From the IMG/VR virus record IMGVR_UViG_3300007541_000129, positions 1 through 29,250 of that record: 29,250 nucleotides of DNA; one strand, 5' to 3'. Of the stretch, positions 10,040-26,232 are shown in pieces. This stretch comes from a virus. The notes under the pieces are model-generated. The model had not been told where the DNA came from and made no database searches. It saw only the letters and a program-made list of their open reading frames with translations. The translations under genes were made by a program, and so were the position numbers. Every line of letters begins with the position of its first letter. Position 1 is the first letter of the stretch.

Positions 10040-11911
10040 TCACCCCTGGCGATTTGCTCGTGCGAAAACGATCCTGTTATAGAGCGCTTGTGTTTCTGGT
10101 CTTGCCCTGCGATAACGAGCCATCGTTTTTGCGTTCTTCATCACCGCACCAGCAGAACTTTTTTTCTGGGAGGAAACGGTTGACCGCAGTTCTTTGATGA
10201 TCTTTGCATTACGCTTCTCGAATGCAGCTCGCGTAACCTCGTCGGAATTGCGCAACAGTTCCTTGCCGCCACCAGAAATCCACTTGTCCAATTCCTTGGT
10301 GGTCTTGAACGTTGCCTCCTCGACCGTTCTAATGTTCTTTGGCTGCCCGCCGATTTTCACGTCGTAAGCTTTCTTCGCAGTAGACTTGCTTGTTTTTGCT
10401 GAGCCCTTCTTGGCAACATTCTTTGCAACAACGCGTGGCGCCGCTGCTTTCTTGGCAACAGTCTCAACGACTTCTTCTCCGCCTTCAGCAACAAACTGAG
10501 CCATAGCCTTGCTTTGGTTCTGAACCATTGCATTGATCACGTCAGAAGAAACCATTTCGAGATTGCTTCCAGACGACTTGGCCGTTGTCTCCAGGAATGT
10601 GCCGCTCATGCGAGGTCCGGTGTAAATCATTCCCTCAAACTTCGGAGCAGCTTCCTTCTTGACTGCAGCCGCCTTCTTTGCAACAGCCTTCTTGGCCGTT
10701 GCCTTCTTTGCAACCTTCTTTGCTGCAGCCTTGACTGGAGCAGGAGTTGCTTTGGTTACGGTCTTTTCAATTACTTGGGCTGCTGGCTTGGCGTCAACCT
10801 TTGCCGTCTTGGTCGCAGCTTTCTTGGAAGTTTTCTTTGCAGTTGTGGCAACAGCAGCAGCGCCACGACGACCACTCATTGCTACCTTTGGAAGCTTTGC
10901 GCCACCCGCCGCACCCTTGGCACCCTTAGCGGCACCCTTTGCACCGGCAGCAGCCCCCTTCGCCCCCTGGGCAGCGCCACGAATTCCGCCAGCCGTAGAA
11001 GCACGCGTCACCGGGGTTGGAGTAATGACCGTTGTGGTCTTCTTGGTCGTGCTCTTCGCAGTGTTTTTTGCGGCGGAGGTTGCGGCCGAAGTTGGCTTTG
11101 GGGCGGTAAAGCGAACGCCACCAAGTTCTCCTGGTTTGATCTTTACAACATCGTCGATCTTTGAAGCGGACCTACTTGTCAGCTTTGTAATTGAACTTGT
11201 TACCGCGCTCTTTCCACCAGCAGCAAGACCTTTGACGGCGCTTCCGGCAGCTGGTGTTCCAAGGATGCTGGCCACAACGGAGGCGGTGTTCACTATTGCC
11301 TCTACTGGGTTGGCTTCGCGTTGCTTCAACTTTGGATTGATTCGACCACCCGTCTGATTCCACAGTGGGTTGATAAAAGTTGCTTGAATACTTTCGCCTT
11401 CACGTGATGCAAAGTTCAAAGCCTTCGATCCACCGGCTTTCGCCCACTTCAACCAGTTGCTTGGGTTGGTTGCTGAGTCAAGTGTGCGCTGAATAGCGTC
11501 TGGTTTCCAAACTTTTGCCGGTGCTGCTGGAGTCTGTCCCCAACCCTGAACGGACTGACGACGCACAGACTGCATCTGACCGGTTGTCAGTCGTGGAGTT
11601 TGCGTTTGCCCAGTGGTGTTAGAACCCTTGCCCGACGTACCACCTTTGTTGGCCGCGGCCTTCTGCGCAGCAATGCGCTTGAGGTCTCCCTCGGTGTAAA
11701 AACCAGCACGTTGTACTCCTCCCGACTTGTACTTCTGCCGCAATGCTTTACGGTCAACAGGCTTGCCTGCCGCTTCCAGTTCTGCTGCACGCTTCTGAAC
11801 GTAAAAACGTGTGCGCGCTTCGGGCTTCTCGAGGTTCGGACGAGCTTGAACAAATTCACGACGTTCTTTTTCAAGTTGAATTTGTGCAGGTGTCTTCTTC
11901 TTCGATGCCAT
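10040..11911 (-). CDS. Lys/Ala-rich, histone H1-like protein (623 aa)
   Basis: The ATG at 11911 follows GGAGACTGA. Residues 1-80 are basic and helical. Residues about 152-220 form a domain also found in the 188-aa protein at 13902-14468 (shared motifs: ESxQATFxNP, REAxPxEA, NTAxxxASI). Residues about 300-420 are low-complexity: GAKGAA repeats, then KKxxxKKA repeats as in H1-like basic tails. The C-terminal part contains a compact region around KKAYDVKIGGQPKNIRT, then more basic helices. The composition argues for DNA or RNA binding, perhaps packaged with the genome. Low complexity makes homology calls unsafe. Position between terminase and portal is unusual for a protein of this type. Its antisense frames are long because of codon bias. 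Confidence 0.75.
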   Translation of the reverse strand: MASKKKTPAQIQLEKERREFVQARPNLEKPEARTRFYVQKRAAELEAAGKPVDRKALRQKYKSGGVQRAGFYTEGDLKRIAAQKAAANKGGTSGKGSNTTGQTQTPRLTTGQMQSVRRQSVQGWGQTPAAPAKVWKPDAIQRTLDSATNPSNWLKWAKAGGSKALNFASREGESIQATFINPLWNQTGGRINPKLKQREANPVEAIVNTASVVASILGTPAAGSAVKGLAAGGKSAVTSSITKLTSRSASKIDDVVKIKPGELGGVRFTAPKPTSAATSAAKNTAKSTTKKTTTVITPTPVTRASTAGGIRGAAQGAKGAAAGAKGAAKGAKGAAGGAKLPKVAMSGRRGAAAVATTAKKTSKKAATKTAKVDAKPAAQVIEKTVTKATPAPVKAAAKKVAKKATAKKAVAKKAAAVKKEAAPKFEGMIYTGPRMSGTFLETTAKSSGSNLEMVSSDVINAMVQNQSKAMAQFVAEGGEEVVETVAKKAAAPRVVAKNVAKKGSAKTSKSTAKKAYDVKIGGQPKNIRTVEEATFKTTKELDKWISGGGKELLRNSDEVTRAAFEKRNAKIIKELRSTVSSQKKSSAGAVMKNAKTMARYRRARPETQALYNRIVFARANRQG

Positions 11912-13901: not shown

Positions 13902-14468
13902 TTAGTCTCCAAAAAGCTTACCGCGGGTAAGCCATTCGATCCTTTTCGCTTCTTTGTTGATTGCGTCCGTGAGCCCGGTTTGAGTCAGACGAAGATCATA
14001 GATCTCATCCTTGATCTTGTTGCGAGCTTTCTTGGCTGCCGGGTGCTGGCCATACCCAAACCACTTGTCGGCCTTGGCCTGCTTCAGGCGCTGGATGCTG
14101 TCCCATGCCATCCGATTGGTAGCCAGGCGCTCAAGGGAGCTGTTTGCTGCTTGAGACGCTCCAACTGCCGGTGATGTAATTTTGGCCGCACGCTTCGCAA
14201 TAGACGCGGACTTTGCCATTCCTCCAGTAACAATCGACGCAATCGCCGTAGCTGTATTGTTCAGCGCTTCCATTGGTCTGGCTTCCCTCAGGTTCGGCTT
14301 CTTGCCCACTGCTTTCCCGGCTAGGTTTATCCATGGATTCACAAATGTAGCAGCTTGAGACTCGAGTTCGCTATTGACCACATTGGCCGCCGTCTTGGCT
14401 GAATCCGCCAGGAAGGACTTGAAGTCCGACAGGTTGTCGTTCCAGTTGATTCCAGGCTTCTTTTTCAT
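13902..14468 (-). CDS. Small protein sharing a domain with the Lys-rich protein (188 aa)
   Basis: Unrecognised family. Residues about 16-85 align by eye with residues 152-220 of the 623-aa protein across the terminase gene: ES-QAATFVNPW, PNLREARPMEALNNTATAIASIVTG here against ES-IQATFINPLW, LKQREANPVEAIVNTA, SVVASILG there. The rest is basic and helical (IKDEIYDLRLTQTGLTDAIN). An in-frame TGA 4 codons upstream confines the start to the ATG at 14468 or later. The AAAGGAG at 14498-14504 lies 29 nt away and a five-codon ORF overlaps the start. Position immediately before the terminase suggests packaging or head assembly. A small-terminase substitute is conceivable but unproven. Confidence 0.7.
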   Translation of the reverse strand: MKKKPGINWNDNLSDFKSFLADSAKTAANVVNSELESQAATFVNPWINLAGKAVGKKPNLREARPMEALNNTATAIASIVTGGMAKSASIAKRAAKITSPAVGASQAANSSLERLATNRMAWDSIQRLKQAKADKWFGYGQHPAAKKARNKIKDEIYDLRLTQTGLTDAINKEAKRIEWLTRGKLFGD

Positions 14469-14504
14469 TAGTTGACATCATACATCTATGGTGTACACTC
14501 CTTT
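14468..14504 (-). promoter_or_regulatory. Shine-Dalgarno plus five-codon leader ORF
   Basis: On the minus strand AAAGGAG (14498-14504) is followed 12 nt later by ATG TAT GAT GTC AAC TAA (14468-14485). Its stop overlaps the ATG of the 188-aa gene as TAATG. The layout would let ribosomes load at the mini-ORF (MYDVN) and re-initiate on the gene. The 12-nt spacing is long, so direct use is uncertain. Confidence 0.4.
14472..14499 (+). promoter_or_regulatory. Plus-strand sigma70-like promoter for RNA 1
   Basis: A perfect TTGACA (14472-14477), 16 nt, then TACACT (14494-14499). It points away from the 188-aa gene into a 380-nt region with no plus-strand gene. Predicted start near 14506, where the sequence CACAA shared with RNA 2 begins. 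It overlaps the ribosome site and start region of the divergent minus-strand gene. Confidence 0.6.
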
Positions 14505-14505
14505 G

Positions 14506-14749
14506 CACAAACCACTAAGTCCTCCACGCTGGGAAGCAGTTGAGGCACGCATGGCCGTACTTCATTCGCACGAAGCGGGGCATTGAACACCAGGTAACTG
14601 GGGTAGACCTTCCTGTAATGGGAGGGAGCGACGTGAGGAACGTAACCTCAAATCATCAAGGTGTCGGCTAGAGAATGGCTACGGCGACCTGCTCTAAGGA
14701 GCGAACCGTGGGGGGAGCTCCATAACAGGCCAGGCCCCCAGCCAGGCCA
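14506..14749 (+). ncRNA. Structured noncoding RNA 1 (family unrecognised)
   Basis: This part of the 417-nt gap between minus-strand genes has no convincing ORF but a dense run of hairpins. Stem A is CCTC/GAGG (14521-14545) enclosing GCT-GGGA-AGC. Stem B is CTTC/GAAG (14560-14575) with TCGCA in the loop. Stem C is CCAG-GTAA-CTGG (14590-14601). The linker GGTAGACC follows. Stem D is CCTTCC/GGAGGG (14608-14626) with loop TGTAATG, then AGCGA. Next come GAGG/CCTC (14635-14649), GTCG/CGAC (14663-14688), GCTC-TAAG-GAGC (14691-14702) and TGGGGG/CCCCCA (14709-14740). The GNRA loops (GGGA, GTAA) appear only on the plus strand, which agrees with the upstream promoter. Loop TCGC (14566-14569) can pair with GCGA (14628-14631). 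Stems B-D and their linkers recur with compensatory changes in RNA 2. The 3' end is undefined. Confidence 0.7.
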
Positions 14750-14814
14750 CACACTCACATTTCTTTTCACACAAAGCACGGTTGTATTTGGCACAAATAC
14801 ACACATGTAGAGGT

Positions 14815-14845
14815 GGGGTATTACTACCCCCCGGGGTGGGGGTAG
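14815..14845. promoter_or_regulatory. Two mutually exclusive GC hairpins
   Basis: GGGGTA (14815-14820) pairs with TACCCC (14825-14830) around a 4-nt loop. The same C-tract also fits CTACCCCC (14824-14831) with GGGGGTAG (14838-14845) around a 6-nt loop. Only one can form at a time. No T-run follows on either strand, so this is not a standard intrinsic terminator. It lies 40 nt past the stop of the 90-aa gene and downstream of RNA 1, so it could end either transcript. Between 14750 and 14814 I see only a 6-bp hairpin (GTATTT/AAATAC, 14784-14800). Confidence 0.4.
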
Positions 14846-14885
14846 GGCAGGCAGACCCCTAGTTGGGATCCACCTGCCCCTTGCC

Positions 14886-16516: not shown

Positions 16517-17848
16517 CTATTTCCTCCCCTGTAGTGATTTGAGTATTCGTACTGCTTGCTTTACATCCATTGCCTCGTGAATGTTGTGCCTACGGACTAG
16601 GTGCAAGCACTCATCCAGCAAGTTGTCTGAGCAATAGTCGTTTAGACCAGTTACCCGTTGGTCAGATACCCAAATGACTGGGTTCTTACTGCTTTGACGC
16701 AAGCCCAAGCCGTACTTGAGTGCTGGCGCATCACAGCCATTGCCACCTGGGAATGACGGCAAACGCCGTACACGCCTGCCCCTACGAGCAACGACCCAAG
16801 CGTTCGGGTATTCGTCGCTGGCATAGTTGCCCGTTGAGTAACAGAGCACAGTGCTACCAGCAGCGGAAGCCATGATCTCCTCCATGTCCTTCTCGGACAA
16901 GTGCATGGAACCAGAGCAGTCAAAGACCACTACCGCACCAAGAGCAGGTGACTTCTTGCCGAAGCAACGCCGTTGCTCATCGGTATAGAACCTGCTGATG
17001 TTACGGACAATCTTGCCTGTGTCTGAGTACCCAACCTTTCTGCCCATAAGACCAGAGTGTGTGATCTCTAGGTCAGGCTTCTCTACGAACAATGGATACC
17101 AACGATTGGACTCATAGCCCTTTGTTGGCTCACCGTTGCCGTAGTTCTGGGTCTTGGGCTTACGCCTGCCTTGCTCTTGATCTGCTTCTGCCATTGCCTT
17201 ACTTGCTTGCTCTGCGCCACGCTCTAGCACCTCAGCAAGGTACTTGTAGAACCACAGAGCACGGCGCTTGTAGTAAGCAGACTGTGAGTTGAGGCGAATG
17301 ACATCATGCAAGAAGCGGTATGAGGTCAATACATTCATGACATCCTCTTGCATAGTCCTTAGAGCAGACTGACGCTCTGGATCATCAACGCTAGCGAGTA
17401 GTTTGTCAAATGCGTCAGTGCCAATGTACTTTGCTGCTTCTAGCAACAACGACGGTGTTGGCTCTGGCTCTTTGAGCAACTGTGTGAGAATGTCCAACTG
17501 CACTGTGCCAACAGTAGGATCATCGCTATACACATACTCGTAAACGGTGAATGAAACTATGTGCTGAGCAGAAATGACTGCTGCTTCTGACACATTCCAC
17601 CTCTTGGCGTAGGTCTTTGTCTTTGGGAGAAAGAACCGTGCGTGCGTAAGAGCCACACGGCGCAACTTCCTAGACAGATAGCCCTCACCAATAGGGGCGT
17701 TGATGATGTGACTGCGCTTGGGCGTACCGAACTTGACGCTTACCCCGTTCAGATCAACAGCAGACGAGCCTTGCTCGTAAGTGTTGTGATCTAATAGGGG
17801 CCGTTTCGGTAGCGCCTCTGGCGTTACTAGGCGCTTGGGCGTAGACAT
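16517..17848 (-). CDS. VWA-domain protein, CobT-like (443 aa)
   Basis: The C-terminal third is a von Willebrand A domain: VVVFDCSGSM with the MIDAS residues D310, S312 and S314, and a later acidic residue in VIWVSDQRV (D396). The N-terminal 300 residues are helical and of unknown fold; Arg/Lys-rich stretches occur around 225-260. Stop/start spacing with the AAA gene is zero (TAAATG) and with the 239-aa gene 2 nt. AAA plus VWA pairs (MoxR/VWA, CobS/CobT, RavA/ViaA) act as ATP-driven chaperones or metal-insertion machines; the VWA subunit binds the client through the metal site. The client here is not visible. Cobalt chelation itself is unlikely since no corrin genes are present. Confidence 0.85.
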   Translation of the reverse strand: MSTPKRLVTPEALPKRPLLDHNTYEQGSSAVDLNGVSVKFGTPKRSHIINAPIGEGYLSRKLRRVALTHARFFLPKTKTYAKRWNVSEAAVISAQHIVSFTVYEYVYSDDPTVGTVQLDILTQLLKEPEPTPSLLLEAAKYIGTDAFDKLLASVDDPERQSALRTMQEDVMNVLTSYRFLHDVIRLNSQSAYYKRRALWFYKYLAEVLERGAEQASKAMAEADQEQGRRKPKTQNYGNGEPTKGYESNRWYPLFVEKPDLEITHSGLMGRKVGYSDTGKIVRNISRFYTDEQRRCFGKKSPALGAVVVFDCSGSMHLSEKDMEEIMASAAGSTVLCYSTGNYASDEYPNAWVVARRGRRVRRLPSFPGGNGCDAPALKYGLGLRQSSKNPVIWVSDQRVTGLNDYCSDNLLDECLHLVRRHNIHEAMDVKQAVRILKSLQGRK

Positions 17849-18613
17849 TTACACCTCCTCCATCTTTGCCAATGCCATTGCATCAACAACCTGCTCGGCA
17901 ATACGGGGCAAGCAGATCTCGGCGGAACGGCTGATGTCATTCGTGTTTGAGTAAGCACGAACAAACTCAACGAAGTTGCGCATTGAGTACCTGTCGCTAC
18001 CTGTCCTACGGCACATGGAATACGCCAAGTCCCTGATGTATTCGGGCAAGGACTGTACGGCTTCTGGGTGTGGCTCGTTGATCTCTACTTGCACAATGAG
18101 CCTGTCCTGAATCGCTCTAGCCAAGTCCTCTGGCTCTCCGTTCATTGTCGCTACGACGCTGAAGCCGTCAGCAGGCTTGATCACTTCGCCTGTTTCGGGG
18201 TGTTGCCAAGACGATGAAGCGTCTGTGTCAATGAGTGCCATGAGCCTTGACTCAATGTCGCCATTGACCCTGTCGATTTCGTCTACGACCAAACGACCAC
18301 CTGTTCTCCAAGCCTGAATGGCAACGCCCTCATGGAACTTGAGAGCCATCTGACCGTCAATGGCTGTTGGCTTGTAAACGCCAATGAGATCAGCGTCGGT
18401 CATCTCTTGGGTACAGACCAAGCGGTAAGTTGGCTTGCCGCTTGTGTGGTAGTTCATTGCGTAGAAGGTCTTACCTGTTCCGGGCAAACCGTGTAAGAGC
18501 ACTCGGTTTACGCCTGACTGCAAGGCAAAGTCTGCCTTCTCCCAAGCCGTCATTGGCTTGGTCTCTGGGGTAATGACCATGCGGTCACTGCCCGTTTCGG
18601 TTACGGTATCCAT
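17849..18613 (-). CDS. AAA+ ATPase, MoxR/CobS-like (254 aa)
   Basis: Walker A GLPGTGKT at 42-49, Walker B RLVVDEID at 107-114, sensor-1 VVATMN at 153-158, and AIQDRL (167-172) at the usual place of the arginine finger. The order, short length and paired VWA gene match the MoxR/CobS branch of AAA+ proteins. The ATG at 18613 is preceded by AAGGGAGATAAGCA. It heads the three-gene operon. A promoter-like repeat lies about 160 nt upstream, leaving a leader with two strong hairpins. The substrate is unknown. Phage relatives are often annotated CobS-like. Confidence 0.88.
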   Translation of the reverse strand: MDTVTETGSDRMVITPETKPMTAWEKADFALQSGVNRVLLHGLPGTGKTFYAMNYHTSGKPTYRLVCTQEMTDADLIGVYKPTAIDGQMALKFHEGVAIQAWRTGGRLVVDEIDRVNGDIESRLMALIDTDASSSWQHPETGEVIKPADGFSVVATMNGEPEDLARAIQDRLIVQVEINEPHPEAVQSLPEYIRDLAYSMCRRTGSDRYSMRNFVEFVRAYSNTNDISRSAEICLPRIAEQVVDAMALAKMEEV

Positions 18614-20374: not shown

Positions 20375-20655
20375 TGAATCCTAATGTTCTTTCTCTCAAC
20401 TCCGGACAAGCCACCCCACACTCCGTGGTAGATGTCGTTGTCTAGTGCGAAGTCAAGACACTCTTGCTTTACAAGACACCTATTGCAGATGTCCTTTGCC
20501 ATTTTCAACTTGTCGTTCTCGCCCCTGTCCGGGAAGAACGTTGCACCCGGCAAACCGTTACATGCCGCATCGTCCATCCAGTCGAAGTGTTTGTTGATCA
20601 ACGACCAGTCGCTGAGTATCTCCATCCATAGCTCCCTTTTTTGTTGTTCATTCAT
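20350..20655 (-). CDS. whiB: WhiB-family Fe-S transcription regulator (101 aa)
   Basis: WhiB-like proteins bind a [4Fe-4S] cluster through four cysteines and act on the sigma factor region of RNA polymerase. All signature elements are present: C32, C57xxC60 and C66, followed by the GVWGGLSGVER turn (78-88) and a basic C-terminal tail (KNIRIQWRKENKK) for DNA. The length fits the family. Phage copies are known in actinobacteriophages and can alter host cell division or gene expression. ATG at 20655 follows GAGGG, right after the transglycosylase gene. This is the best indicator of an actinobacterial host. Confidence 0.93.
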   Translation of the reverse strand: MNEQQKRELWMEILSDWSLINKHFDWMDDAACNGLPGATFFPDRGENDKLKMAKDICNRCLVKQECLDFALDNDIYHGVWGGLSGVERKNIRIQWRKENKK

Positions 20656-23959: not shown

Positions 23960-24966
23960 AGCCACACCGTGTATTCGGCAGTAACCCTCCCCTTGTCTGG
24001 GTCTACGAAATGAAGTCTCTGACTTGGTTGTCCCACTGCAGCAACAAACACTCGAGCGTATTCGTTATGCGATTCAGGACTACCGGATACGAACACTCGT
24101 CCAGCATTGGCCATAGTCAGGGTCATCGGTGTATGGAAGTGTCCCATGTACACATCCTGGAAGTCATCCACCACACCAGTAGCCCACGCGTTGCACTTGC
24201 GAAGAATGCCGAATGCTGGCACGTTGCCACCATACGAATTGATTTCGTCTCCGTGCACAAGGAGAGCCTTGTAGTTTCCGACCTGCACCATCTGGTGCCA
24301 GTCCTCTGACATTTGCCAGGTCACGTTTTTCAGATCAGTAGTTCTGTCTGCGGTGATCTTGTAGGCAACCCTGTCAATGTTGTCACCCCCGGGCATGTCA
24401 CCCCTGCGACCCAATCGACCATGGTTGCCGTATTCACATACGACATGAACCTTCTCGAAGTACTCAGAAAGAGTTCTTACCATCGACTCCATGATCTTTG
24501 ATACTTCGAACAGCTGCTCGAATAAGTGGGCTTCGATTTCGTAGGCTTGGCCCGGGAAGATCGAGACGCCTTCAACCATGTCGCCGCCAAACATGAGAAC
24601 ACATTCGCGTACTGGATGATGGTGCCGTTGGATTTCCGTAAGCTCTTTTACTTTTTTGGTGAACTCAAACATCCTGGTTGACAGGACACCAATGTCGTAG
24701 GACTGAGTCTTCTTGCCACACTGCCAATCGGTAGCGTGAACAAGAGCAACCTCTGCCTTGCCTTTTCTGGTGTCTTTCTTTGGCTGGTTGTACTTGTTGC
24801 CACCACCAACCGCAAGCGCAGCATCTTTTGCTGCCGAATAGACAGCGTCAATGATCCCTTGTGATTTGATCTTTGCGCGGAACTCAGCTTGCTGTGCAGT
24901 CTTTAGCGCCCTGCGAAGTTCTGCGAGTTCGCTTTCGTGTTGTGCGAGTTGCTCAAACTTATTCAT
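23956..24966 (-). CDS. Calcineurin-like metallophosphoesterase (336 aa)
   Basis: Residues 1-70 are a helical extension (MNKFEQLAQHESELAELRRA) that may be coiled. The catalytic domain has the five motif blocks in order: HATDWQ (H77, D80), FGGDMVEG (D129), GNHGR (181-184), VHGDE (H238) and MGHFH (H276, H278). The usual DxH of block 1 is replaced by DWQ, a variant seen in some phage members. Such phage enzymes are usually placed with the SbcD/Mre11 nuclease branch, here between an HTH-like gene and the exonuclease, which fits DNA processing. Phosphodiesterase on another substrate cannot be excluded. ATG 24966 overlaps the previous stop region. Confidence 0.85.
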   Translation of the reverse strand: MNKFEQLAQHESELAELRRALKTAQQAEFRAKIKSQGIIDAVYSAAKDAALAVGGGNKYNQPKKDTRKGKAEVALVHATDWQCGKKTQSYDIGVLSTRMFEFTKKVKELTEIQRHHHPVRECVLMFGGDMVEGVSIFPGQAYEIEAHLFEQLFEVSKIMESMVRTLSEYFEKVHVVCEYGNHGRLGRRGDMPGGDNIDRVAYKITADRTTDLKNVTWQMSEDWHQMVQVGNYKALLVHGDEINSYGGNVPAFGILRKCNAWATGVVDDFQDVYMGHFHTPMTLTMANAGRVFVSGSPESHNEYARVFVAAVGQPSQRLHFVDPDKGRVTAEYTVWL

Positions 24967-25165
24967 TGCGCATCCTTTGTATCGACATTGCTGACACGGT
25001 TACACCCAGGGTGCGAAGAGCTTTCTGAATTGCAGCCGAGCTGATCTCTTGGTTCTTCATTGCCTGTTCCCATTCTTTGAATGACTCGGGATCAAGACCT
25101 TGTTTGATTCTTTCCCTGACACCGACGACTTTCGTCTTGTTCAGGGCTTCACCGAACTTTGCCAT
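24959..25165 (-). CDS. Small HTH-like protein (68 aa)
   Basis: ATG 25165 follows AAGGAGAACAAA. The C-terminal half (ISSAAIQKALRTLGVTVSAM, then SIQRMRNE) has the layout of a helix-turn-helix, with a basic end. The N-terminal half is helical (MAKFGEALNKTKVVGVRERI). Small HTH-type genes next to a metallophosphoesterase recur in actinobacteriophages. A long hairpin sits in its 5' leader. DNA target unknown. Confidence 0.65.
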   Translation of the reverse strand: MAKFGEALNKTKVVGVRERIKQGLDPESFKEWEQAMKNQEISSAAIQKALRTLGVTVSAMSIQRMRNE

Positions 25166-25185: not shown

Positions 25186-25229
25186 GTGGGTTGGGATCCT
25201 AGAAGGGAGTAACAAAGATCCCAACCCAC
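25186..25229 (-). promoter_or_regulatory. 13-bp perfect hairpin before the HTH-like gene
   Basis: GTGGGTTGGGATC (25186-25198) pairs with GATCCCAACCCAC (25217-25229), loop 18 nt. It lies 20 nt upstream of the ATG. The minus-strand loop contains CCTTCT, which can pair with the AGAAGG of the ribosome site, so the loop could sequester translation. No T-run follows on the minus strand (ACACCTAAAG), so it is not a terminator there; an operator for a dimeric repressor is the other option. Confidence 0.5.
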
Positions 25230-25252: not shown

Positions 25253-25281
25253 TTGCAACGGGTCAATCATTGGTGTATCTT
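25253..25281 (+). promoter_or_regulatory. Plus-strand promoter for RNA 2
   Basis: TTGCAA (25253-25258), 17 nt, TATCTT (25276-25281). The same hexamer and spacing occur in the minus-strand element at 15209-15237. The predicted start near 25288 coincides with the CACAA shared with RNA 1. Confidence 0.5.
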
Positions 25282-25288
25282 TTCCGAC

Positions 25289-25430
25289 CACAACCGAGAA
25301 GTTCCATGCGTGTGCCCCTGTCGCAGGGGGTGGGCGGTAAACAGGGAAACCTGGGTAGTCCGTGCTGTCATGGCACGGGGCGAAGAATTAGAAATGGGAG
25401 TCGGGCTGAGGCAACCCGACGGGGGACATT
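25289..25430 (+). ncRNA. Structured noncoding RNA 2 (paralogue of RNA 1)
   Basis: The 268-nt gap between two minus-strand genes holds CACAA at 25289, then a stem CCCC/GGGG (25315-25329) with TCGCA in the loop. Next is CAGG-GAAA-CCTG (25342-25353), GGTAGTCC, the stem CCGTGC/GCACGG (25360-25378) with loop TGTCATG, and GGCGA. The hairpin GTCGGG/CCCGAC (25400-25420) follows. Each element up to GGCGA has its counterpart in RNA 1 in the same order and spacing, with different stem bases but preserved pairing. The GAAA tetraloop again appears only on the plus strand. RNA 1 has an extra 5' hairpin and a longer 3' region. The 3' end here is not defined and may run into the antisense of the 67-aa gene. 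Confidence 0.7.
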
Positions 25431-25433
25431 CAG

Positions 25434-25637
25434 TTACTTTTGCTGGTCGTGGTCACGGATGTGGTTGTCTAACTTTTCTTCAATCCGTGTGTGTGATTTG
25501 TACAGAATCTTGAGCATGCCCATGACCACGTTGTGATCCGCCTGGTTTTCCTTGCGGAACTTTTGGATCAATGCAACCATGACCGTCCCAACAGCACTCA
25601 CAAACGCTGCAAGGATCAGTGCCCAACCAGCGTCCAT
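25434..25637 (-). CDS. Small one-TM protein of the lysis block (67 aa)
   Basis: I prefer ATG 25637, which starts just after the endolysin's TGA (TGAGATG). A GTG at 25655 is possible. One TM segment (WALILAAFVSAVGTVMVALI) near the N-terminus is followed by a charged cytoplasmic helix (KILYKSHTRIEEKLDNHIRD). This N-terminal TM plus coiled tail is common among actinobacteriophage holin-like or lysis-associated proteins. With two more membrane proteins before the endolysin, it may be a second holin or an accessory/antiholin. Confidence 0.7.
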   Translation of the reverse strand: MDAGWALILAAFVSAVGTVMVALIQKFRKENQADHNVVMGMLKILYKSHTRIEEKLDNHIRDHDQQK

Positions 25638-25638
25638 C

Positions 25639-26232
25639 TCAAGCTGGCTTCCCACACGCTGGGCAAACGGAGACCTGTTCTGGACTGTGTCCAGATTTTG
25701 ATTCCTTCCAAATCTTTACAGCTTCTGGAGTTTCGTCTCCAGCCACATAGCGCAAATGCCATGGTTCGCTTTGAAGCTCCCACGAGAATCCAAACTTGTG
25801 TGCGTTTGCAAGCAACCAATCGAGGCGCTTGCCGGACGCATTGGCAATGTCGACCGCGATCCCTAGGTTGTGGTTGCTGGTACCGGGCACAGCAAGTGGT
25901 GCCATCTTCGGCTTCAAATACCAAGCTTTACCTTTGTAGATCCGAGGCTTTTGTCTCGCCACCTTCTTATTCTTCGGGGTGGTCGTGTAACGCTGAAAGA
26001 ACCCGTACTCCTGCATCTCCAACGAACGATAAGTATCCGCTGTCGAGGTTGGACTCAGATCAATACCAGCAGCGTTAGCGGCCTCATCCATCGCTTCGTA
26101 TGCGTCAGCAGCACAATGATGCAACTTCCCTTTCTCAATGCTTTTCAGCAGATCAGGGGACAGTTGACCTGGTTTGGCGTTCCGCAGATGGGAACACAGT
26201 TTCACTTTGACAATCGGGTATGGCTTAGCCAT
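25639..26232 (-). CDS. Endolysin, M15/VanY D-Ala-D-Ala peptidase (197 aa)
   Basis: This would cut the stem peptide or cross-bridge of host peptidoglycan at lysis. The zinc peptidase motifs are complete: SNHNLGIAVD with H121 and D128, and SEPWH with E156 and H159. No signal peptide, so it needs the holins for release. The N-terminal 60 residues are a helical extension (LSPDLLKSIEKGKLHHCAAD). The C-terminus ends CPACGKPA, a single CxxC knuckle without a visible partner. ATG 26232 overlaps the preceding TAA (TAATG). Flanked by membrane proteins on both sides. Confidence 0.88.
   Translation of the reverse strand: MAKPYPIVKVKLCSHLRNAKPGQLSPDLLKSIEKGKLHHCAADAYEAMDEAANAAGIDLSPTSTADTYRSLEMQEYGFFQRYTTTPKNKKVARQKPRIYKGKAWYLKPKMAPLAVPGTSNHNLGIAVDIANASGKRLDWLLANAHKFGFSWELQSEPWHLRYVAGDETPEAVKIWKESKSGHSPEQVSVCPACGKPA

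Follow-up and report, generated by a model that had tools for sequence, protein, structure and literature searches.

Two related structured RNAs, putatively non-coding, at operon boundaries of an uncultured tailed phage

Can two intergenic regions of one phage genome, 10.8 kb apart, be genes for related RNAs, and if so, what might such RNAs do? The question is raised by the virus record IMGVR_UViG_3300007541_000129 (IMG/VR), whose 29,250 bases we analyzed in full and refer to as the window. A preliminary description of this DNA had reported two regions, RNA 1 and RNA 2, with the same series of short stems, and had proposed that they are diverged paralogues under selection for structure, lie opposite to the genes and suggest a dedicated noncoding system. 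The window comes from a tailed phage encoding a T7-like large terminase (phrog_38), a portal protein (phrog_104), recombination exonucleases and a VanY-type endolysin. This phage looks lytic; its - strand carries nearly all of its genes, and no tRNA or tmRNA genes were found in the window (ARAGORN).

Two RNAs with a common core

On comparative grounds, RNA 1 and RNA 2 are two related non-coding RNA genes in one phage. The CACAA at which each is predicted to start lies 7 nt past the -10 box TACACT in RNA 1 and 8 nt past TATCTT in RNA 2, and the conserved spans cover about 213 nt and 142 nt, respectively. The elements of RNA 1 are:

14472..14499, +, promoter of RNA 1, TTGACA-16-TACACT; 10/12 in a sigma70 scan, with promoter-like sequence in the same place in homologues
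14506..14718, +, RNA 1, conserved span from CACAA to GGGGGGAGC; about 50 homologues upstream of the large terminase gene (TerL), 125 distinct sequences; exact 5' and 3' ends predicted
14521..14545, +, 5' hairpin A; from alignments of homologues and a tally
14554..14581, +, stem B with internal loop GUAC/GCGG; 8 pairs, 6 changed on both sides, 99.7% of cells paired
14566..14569, +, pseudoknot 5' strand UCGC in loop B; 100% of cells paired; U..A 86, C..G 19, mismatch 0
14590..14601, +, stem C with GNRA tetraloop; 100% paired, 2 pairs changed on both sides
14608..14626, +, stem D; 6/6 pairs changed on both sides, 97.8% paired
14628..14631, +, pseudoknot 3' strand GCGA; from the covariation tally
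14634..14650, +, stem E with conserved AACG loop; 4/4 pairs changed on both sides, 90.9% paired
14659..14690, +, hairpin F with nearly invariant AGGUGUCGGCUA..UGGCUACGGCGACCU; 12 pairs, 7 without variation, 98.4% paired
14691..14702, +, hairpin G (GCUC..GAGC); 4/4 pairs changed on both sides, 88.7% paired
14705..14718, +, tail ACCGUGGGGGGAGC; near-invariant columns

Those of RNA 2 are:

25253..25281, +, promoter of RNA 2, TTGCAA-17-TATCTT; kept in homologues
25289..25430, +, RNA 2, between genes 24959-25165 (-) and 25434-25655 (-); about 30 homologous loci upstream of an exonuclease gene; ends predicted
25305..25337, +, stem B with internal loop; 9 pairs, 5 changed on both sides, 96.5% paired
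25321..25324, +, pseudoknot 5' strand UCGC; C..GCG 19, U..GCA 3, broken 0
25342..25353, +, stem C with GNRA tetraloop; from the RNA 2 alignment and covariation tally
25360..25378, +, stem D; 7/7 pairs changed on both sides
25380..25383, +, pseudoknot 3' strand GCGA; from the covariation tally
25400..25420, +, 3' hairpin, followed by GGGGG; 7 pairs, 4 with double changes, 100% paired

The two RNAs share a core consisting of stem B with its internal loop, the GNRA stem, stem D and a pseudoknot between loop B and the bases just 3' of stem D, and they differ in their 3' domains. Stem B is CTTC/GAAG in RNA 1 and CCCC/GGGG in RNA 2, with TCGCA in the loop of each; the GNRA stem reads CCAG-GTAA-CTGG in RNA 1 and CAGG-GAAA-CCTG in RNA 2, with GGTAGACC and GGTAGTCC, respectively, next in line; and stem D is CCTTCC/GGAGGG, then AGCGA, in RNA 1 and CCGTGC/GCACGG, then GGCGA, in RNA 2. 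Hairpin A has a GGGAW loop in relatives, closed by GTC/GAC, GCT/AGC, GAT/ATC, ACG/CGT or ATT/AAT, and a GGGGGG run closes the conserved part of RNA 1. The stretch UGUCGGCU resembles part of 23S rRNA, at a level expected by chance for an 8-mer.

All elements listed in the preliminary description are present in both RNAs where it had placed them, and it was right about the core. The transcripts, though, appear larger than the region it had boxed, beyond which lie the 5' hairpin and conserved 3' domain of RNA 1 as well as RNA 2's own 3' hairpin and G-run.

Selection on structure

We assessed the proposed folds in alignments of 46 non-redundant RNA 1 sequences and 22 RNA 2 sequences, both of them based on sequence and not fitted to structure. 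RNAalifold found 41 pairs in RNA 1, 25 of which changed on both sides. With the pseudoknot added, double-sided changes were found in 26 pairs, and 97.2% of cells were paired, compared to 34-45% when the partners were slid. The covariation score was 0.486, against 0.05-0.09 for slid partners and 0.159 for shuffled alignments, and 0/500 shuffles reached this value, although shuffle statistics are inflated by kinship among the sequences, so that the slid controls and the count of pair types deserve more trust. For RNA 2, 17/25 pairs changed on both sides with a score of 0.460 (0.07-0.13 in controls), and 93.9% of cells were paired (43-52% in controls), figures in which the pseudoknot helix is undercounted because the alignment places three U-type sequences one column out of register. 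Stems thus covary in homologous phages, with scores far above the slid and shuffled controls, which rules out chance or artefact as the source of the fold.

The UCGC-GCGA pairing that had been noted as available in both RNAs covaries in both families. In RNA 1, U-U-G-C in loop B occurs with G-C-A 86 times and U-C-G-C with G-C-G 19 times, the two never being mixed; in RNA 2 there are 19 copies of the C type and 3 of the U type, again never mixed (six cases missed or misplaced by the regular expression were read by eye). Judged by these tallies, with C opposite G or U opposite A in every copy, UCGC x GCGA is a true pseudoknot. The + strand is fixed as the RNA strand by G-U pairs (e.g., U-G in stem B and hairpin F) and by the GNRA loops.

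Comparative evidence of this kind shows that selection acts on the + strand RNA structure of both, as the preliminary description had proposed, and supports their non-coding character. Folding energy alone was uninformative, with single-sequence z-scores of only -1.3 (RNA 1) and -0.7 (RNA 2). A further closing helix, CAUGG x CCGUG, pairing CGUG of the tail with CAUG at 14550-14553, was rejected, as it had zero double changes in the RNA 1 alignment.

Distribution and paralogy

A single DNA pattern led to a near relative, contig 3300035670_000597, which carries both RNAs (RNA 2 at 92% identity) and whose terminal 127-base repeat marks it as a complete circularised assembly. In 80 loci fetched by the terminase, an RNA 1 profile had about 50 matches, each of them located upstream of the terminase on the opposite strand, and 80 loci fetched by the exonuclease adjoining RNA 2 gave about 30 RNA 2 homologues, upstream of the exonuclease. 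The hairpin F pattern matched at least 119 viral contigs. Altogether, RNA 1 occurs in more than 100 uncultured viral contigs, and 125 distinct RNA 1 sequences were gathered.

The two families recognize each other. A profile made only from RNA 1 of other contigs picks up RNA 2 of the window (E=2.6e-6), and RNA 2 as a query retrieves the RNA 1 family (best E=7e-8). Since an RNA 1-only model, containing no RNA 2, still finds RNA 2, the two are by this measure paralogues, as had been proposed. A covariance model of the core (R1; 83 positions, trained on both families with both window copies included) has exactly two hits in the window, at 88.9 and 80.8 bits, followed by a next best of 8.5. Two copies are found in the source phage and its close clade, and just one, RNA 1, in most other near-complete genomes, so that the pair is not general among the relatives. 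Where both are present, they are ~11 kb apart with early genes between them. RNA 1 would be the ancestral, near-universal copy and RNA 2 a duplicate at a second operon boundary, confined to the source phage's clade. Of the few relatives lacking an R1 match, some (L042, L032, L077 group) have an RNA 1 that has diverged and differs in its middle part.

RNA 1 also occurs in a second phage group (L173, L166, L169, L235, L256, L270, L272) that has another terminase, SSB and WhiB, and is therefore not tied to one terminase. Yet another context is seen in L191 (62% GC). In L171, L190, L209, L218 and their kin, an extra folded 3' domain lies ~40-90 nt past the RNA 1 G-run; it consists of CCGC..GCGG and then AACGCCC..CGGUUGUU, and repeats the GGCUACG motif of hairpin F.

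Neither the window nor 13 homologous loci matched an Rfam 15 family, with relaxed searches yielding chance hits far below the curated threshold. No matches were found in 84,980 bacterial and archaeal genomes searched with an exact pattern only, and blast against 50,697 phage records returned no match to the RNAs and one chance-level 36-base match outside RNA 2.

The phages and their hosts

WhiB (PF02467) was found in 35/35 genomes or contigs tested and, among 14 control genomes, in Corynebacterium glutamicum only. Its presence in all those tested indicates that the hosts of the RNA-carrying phages are most likely Actinobacteria, of freshwater. In the source phage the WhiB gene is at 20386-20580 (-), in the early module. 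The replication enzymes searched for were DNA polymerase A and DnaB-type helicase, and neither was found (polymerase over cut-off) in any of 34 near-complete genomes with or near RNA 1. Replication should therefore lean on the host. A MoxR/CobS-like AAA ATPase adjoins a 443-residue protein (16517-18613, -), a pair retained throughout the clade; the 443-residue protein has a von Willebrand-like look by sequence, without a domain match.

Surroundings of RNA 1

RNA 1 precedes the terminase operon, always divergently and often 0.2-1.5 kb away, and opens a conserved intergenic block. Before the terminase, a small protein (13902-14468, -), not recognisable as a small terminase, resembles part of a 623-residue protein located after it (10040-11911, -), based on a match that the two have in common at one position in L186 and L226. 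The gene block that comes next downstream is on the RNA strand, starting ~0.5-1.2 kb away, in about half of the RNA 1 lineages and on the - strand in the others. The orientation opposite to the genes is thus correct for the source phage, a trait of its clade and not of all relatives. Since RNA 1 is kept with downstream genes on either strand it is not simply one gene's leader, and a plain cis-leader of downstream genes was rejected on this ground.

Many lineages have, downstream of RNA 1, a U-rich terminator-like tract, CCACnCAnAGY repeats, a promoter-like motif and a hairpin around GGCAGACCCC. In the source phage we found:

14796..14823, +, promoter-like motif AATACACACATGTAGAGGTGGGGTATTA downstream of RNA 1; sole match in the window, with related motifs downstream of RNA 1 elsewhere
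14845..14879, + (strand not certain in the source phage), conserved hairpin around GGCAGACCCCYAGTT; same motif in many lineages

In other lineages the downstream motif reads AAAAGAGTGAAAAC-17-TAATAC and lies ahead of + strand genes. Terminator-like structures downstream of RNA 1 were found in 10/54 lineages versus 7.7 in shuffles, showing no excess. We accordingly rejected the idea that RNA 1 ends in an intrinsic terminator in every lineage, although canonical ones are present in some.

The CCACnCAnAGY motif, which was chosen after inspection, occurs 34 times downstream of RNA 1 versus 0.83 in shuffles. Its direct repeats are iteron-like, in pairs mostly ~20-22 bp apart (L179, L187, L209, L234, L198, L070 and others). 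DnaA-like boxes were found in 6/52 distinct regions versus 0.54 expected, and are missing from most lineages, including the source phage. DnaA boxes that are perfect or nearly so (TTATCCACA, TTGTCCACA), a few of them forming inverted pairs, lie 30-100 bp past RNA 1 in L038, L039, L042, L250, L235, L178 and L187, and hairpin G itself holds TGTGGATAA in L037-L040, L020, L024 and L064. GC skew showed no consistent switch at RNA 1.

Surroundings of RNA 2

RNA 2 fills the space that separates the first early gene (24959-25165, -) from the late gene that comes last (25434-25655, -). Its flanking genes are both on the other strand and it has no gene of its own downstream. Its promoter stands back to back with the early operon, which begins with a leader hairpin:

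25186..25229, -, leader hairpin of the divergent early operon; the stem changes fully among relatives while pairing stays; z -2.9

The loop of this hairpin, UUACUCCCUUCU (of the constant UCCCUU type), can pair with the Shine-Dalgarno sequence AGAAGGAG just downstream, and the hairpin looks like a translation control element. The same loop is also complementary to GGGAGU of RNA 2. Both GGGAG and the leader loop are nearly invariant, so that their pairing shows no covariation, and it is lost in one relative (L132).

Possible functions

Whereas the structure is certain, its function is inferred. Our preferred reading, to which we give a probability of roughly 0.45, is that RNA 1 and RNA 2 are trans-acting early RNAs with a common binding core and different outputs. 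Host RNA polymerase would transcribe them from their sigma70-like promoters, probably early because such promoters need no phage factor. The RNAs would then act in trans, with the common core binding one partner, a protein machine of host or phage, and the distinct 3' domains giving each RNA its own output. For RNA 2, a suggested target is the leader hairpin with which the divergent early operon begins, with GGGAG pairing with the UCCCUU loop. Consistent with this reading are the covariation and pseudoknot, the RNAs' own conserved promoters, the leader-hairpin complementarity, the terminator-like U-rich tracts after RNA 1 in many lineages, the retention of RNA 1 ahead of genes on either strand, the position of RNA 2 between two genes of the other strand, and the presence of two copies in the source phage and one in most relatives. 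Against it, terminator-like structures show no excess over shuffles across all lineages, the pairing of GGGAG with the leader loop shows no covariation and is lost in L132, and RNA 1 borders an origin-like block, which is also compatible with action in cis on DNA. The dedicated noncoding system proposed earlier is a reasonable hypothesis.

That origin-like block underlies the main and strongest rival, which owes its weight to the repeats, the DnaA-like boxes and the missing replication genes, and which we hold to be possible if doubtful. RNA 1 would be part of a replication origin. Its transcript, folded and hybridised to the template close to the G-run, would either act as a primer for the host replisome or open the DNA for it, in the manner of the pre-primer RNA II of ColE1, and RNA 2 would serve as another origin or as a regulator derived from RNA 1. 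RNA 1 does point into a long intergenic block with many more CCACnCAnAGY repeats than shuffled sequence, its conserved part ends in GGGGGG, and the 34 near-complete genomes yielded neither DNA polymerase A nor DnaB-type helicase. However, the repeat motif was picked after looking, most lineages, the source phage among them, lack DnaA boxes, GC skew does not switch consistently, and one clade has a further folded domain past the G-run. Moreover, no such block lies behind RNA 2, which is left unexplained. A combined version, in which RNA 1 is a structured origin RNA recruiting the host replisome in a phage without its own polymerase or helicase and the RNA 2 paralogue tunes the origin or early operon in trans, we regard as unlikely.

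The remaining explanations fit the data less well. As cis-acting nascent RNAs, RNA 1 and RNA 2 could modify RNA polymerase and allow terminator read-through, a role suited by the start of RNA 1, which directly follows its promoter, and by the U-rich tracts and + strand genes that come after it in about half of the lineages; HK022 likewise has two similar RNAs, the put RNAs, which lie near early promoters (PMC9378689). This model is weakened because both RNAs are conserved in the source phage although neither has an RNA-strand gene downstream, and because they are two to three times longer than put with another fold, making it quite unlikely. The constant divergence of RNA 1 from the terminase operon, often at short distance, would be expected of a packaging RNA like the prohead RNA (pRNA) of phi29. 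In the second phage group, however, which has another terminase, SSB and WhiB genes separate it from the RNA, at a distance of 2.2-4.3 kb; this varying distance, together with RNA 2, which has no terminase beside it, weakens the packaging model, as does the absence of a match to the Rfam pRNA family, and we consider it very improbable. Finally, the intergenic position of the regions at both operon boundaries could reflect conservation of the DNA itself (operators, a pac site) with an incidental RNA fold. Compensatory changes on both sides of 26 pairs in RNA 1 and 17 in RNA 2, with slid and shuffled controls far lower, together with the covarying pseudoknot and the strand-specific G-U pairs, leave this barely credible and in practice refute it.

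Comparison with known systems

HK022 carries two similar structured put RNAs (putL, putR) near early promoters that host RNA polymerase reads (PMC9378689). Our phage likewise has two similar structured RNAs, here at operon boundaries. However, put RNAs are ~70 nt with two stem-loops and lead the early transcripts whose terminators they override, whereas the RNAs described here are 140-220 nt with a pseudoknotted core, and in the source phage they are followed by no gene on the RNA strand. GOLLD and ROOL are structured phage RNAs that were found, like ours, by covariation in uncultured sequence, their function being unknown (PMC12286853). They range from ~600 to >800 nt and are often near tRNA islands, whereas RNA 1 and RNA 2 span ~213 and 142 nt in a window lacking tRNA genes and have no Rfam match. 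The pRNA of phi29 has been described as unique to phi29-like phages (PMC11476376). It too is a small phage RNA, and RNA 1 lies beside the terminase operon, but no Rfam sequence or structure match was found, the distance to TerL varies and RNA 2 is far from the terminase. RNA 1, folded, with a G-run and pointing towards origin-like repeats, bears a circumstantial likeness to RNA II of ColE1. RNA II is a folded pre-primer transcript with a G-run, from a replicon without its own polymerase, where replication starts at the 3' end of the RNA and RNase H processes the R-loop; we found no sequence relation between the two and saw no antisense counterpart of RNA I.

The family is found in more than 100 uncultured phages, most likely of freshwater Actinobacteria, and in none of Rfam, the 84,980 prokaryote genomes (exact pattern) or isolated phages. 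As replication in these phages appears to proceed with no recognisable DNA polymerase A or DnaB helicase, the RNA may help to reveal how they exploit the host. RNA 1 and RNA 2 match no described family and form a new, strongly supported class of phage non-coding RNA with a covarying pseudoknot, whose novelty lies in the RNA family, while the mechanism may be of a known kind.
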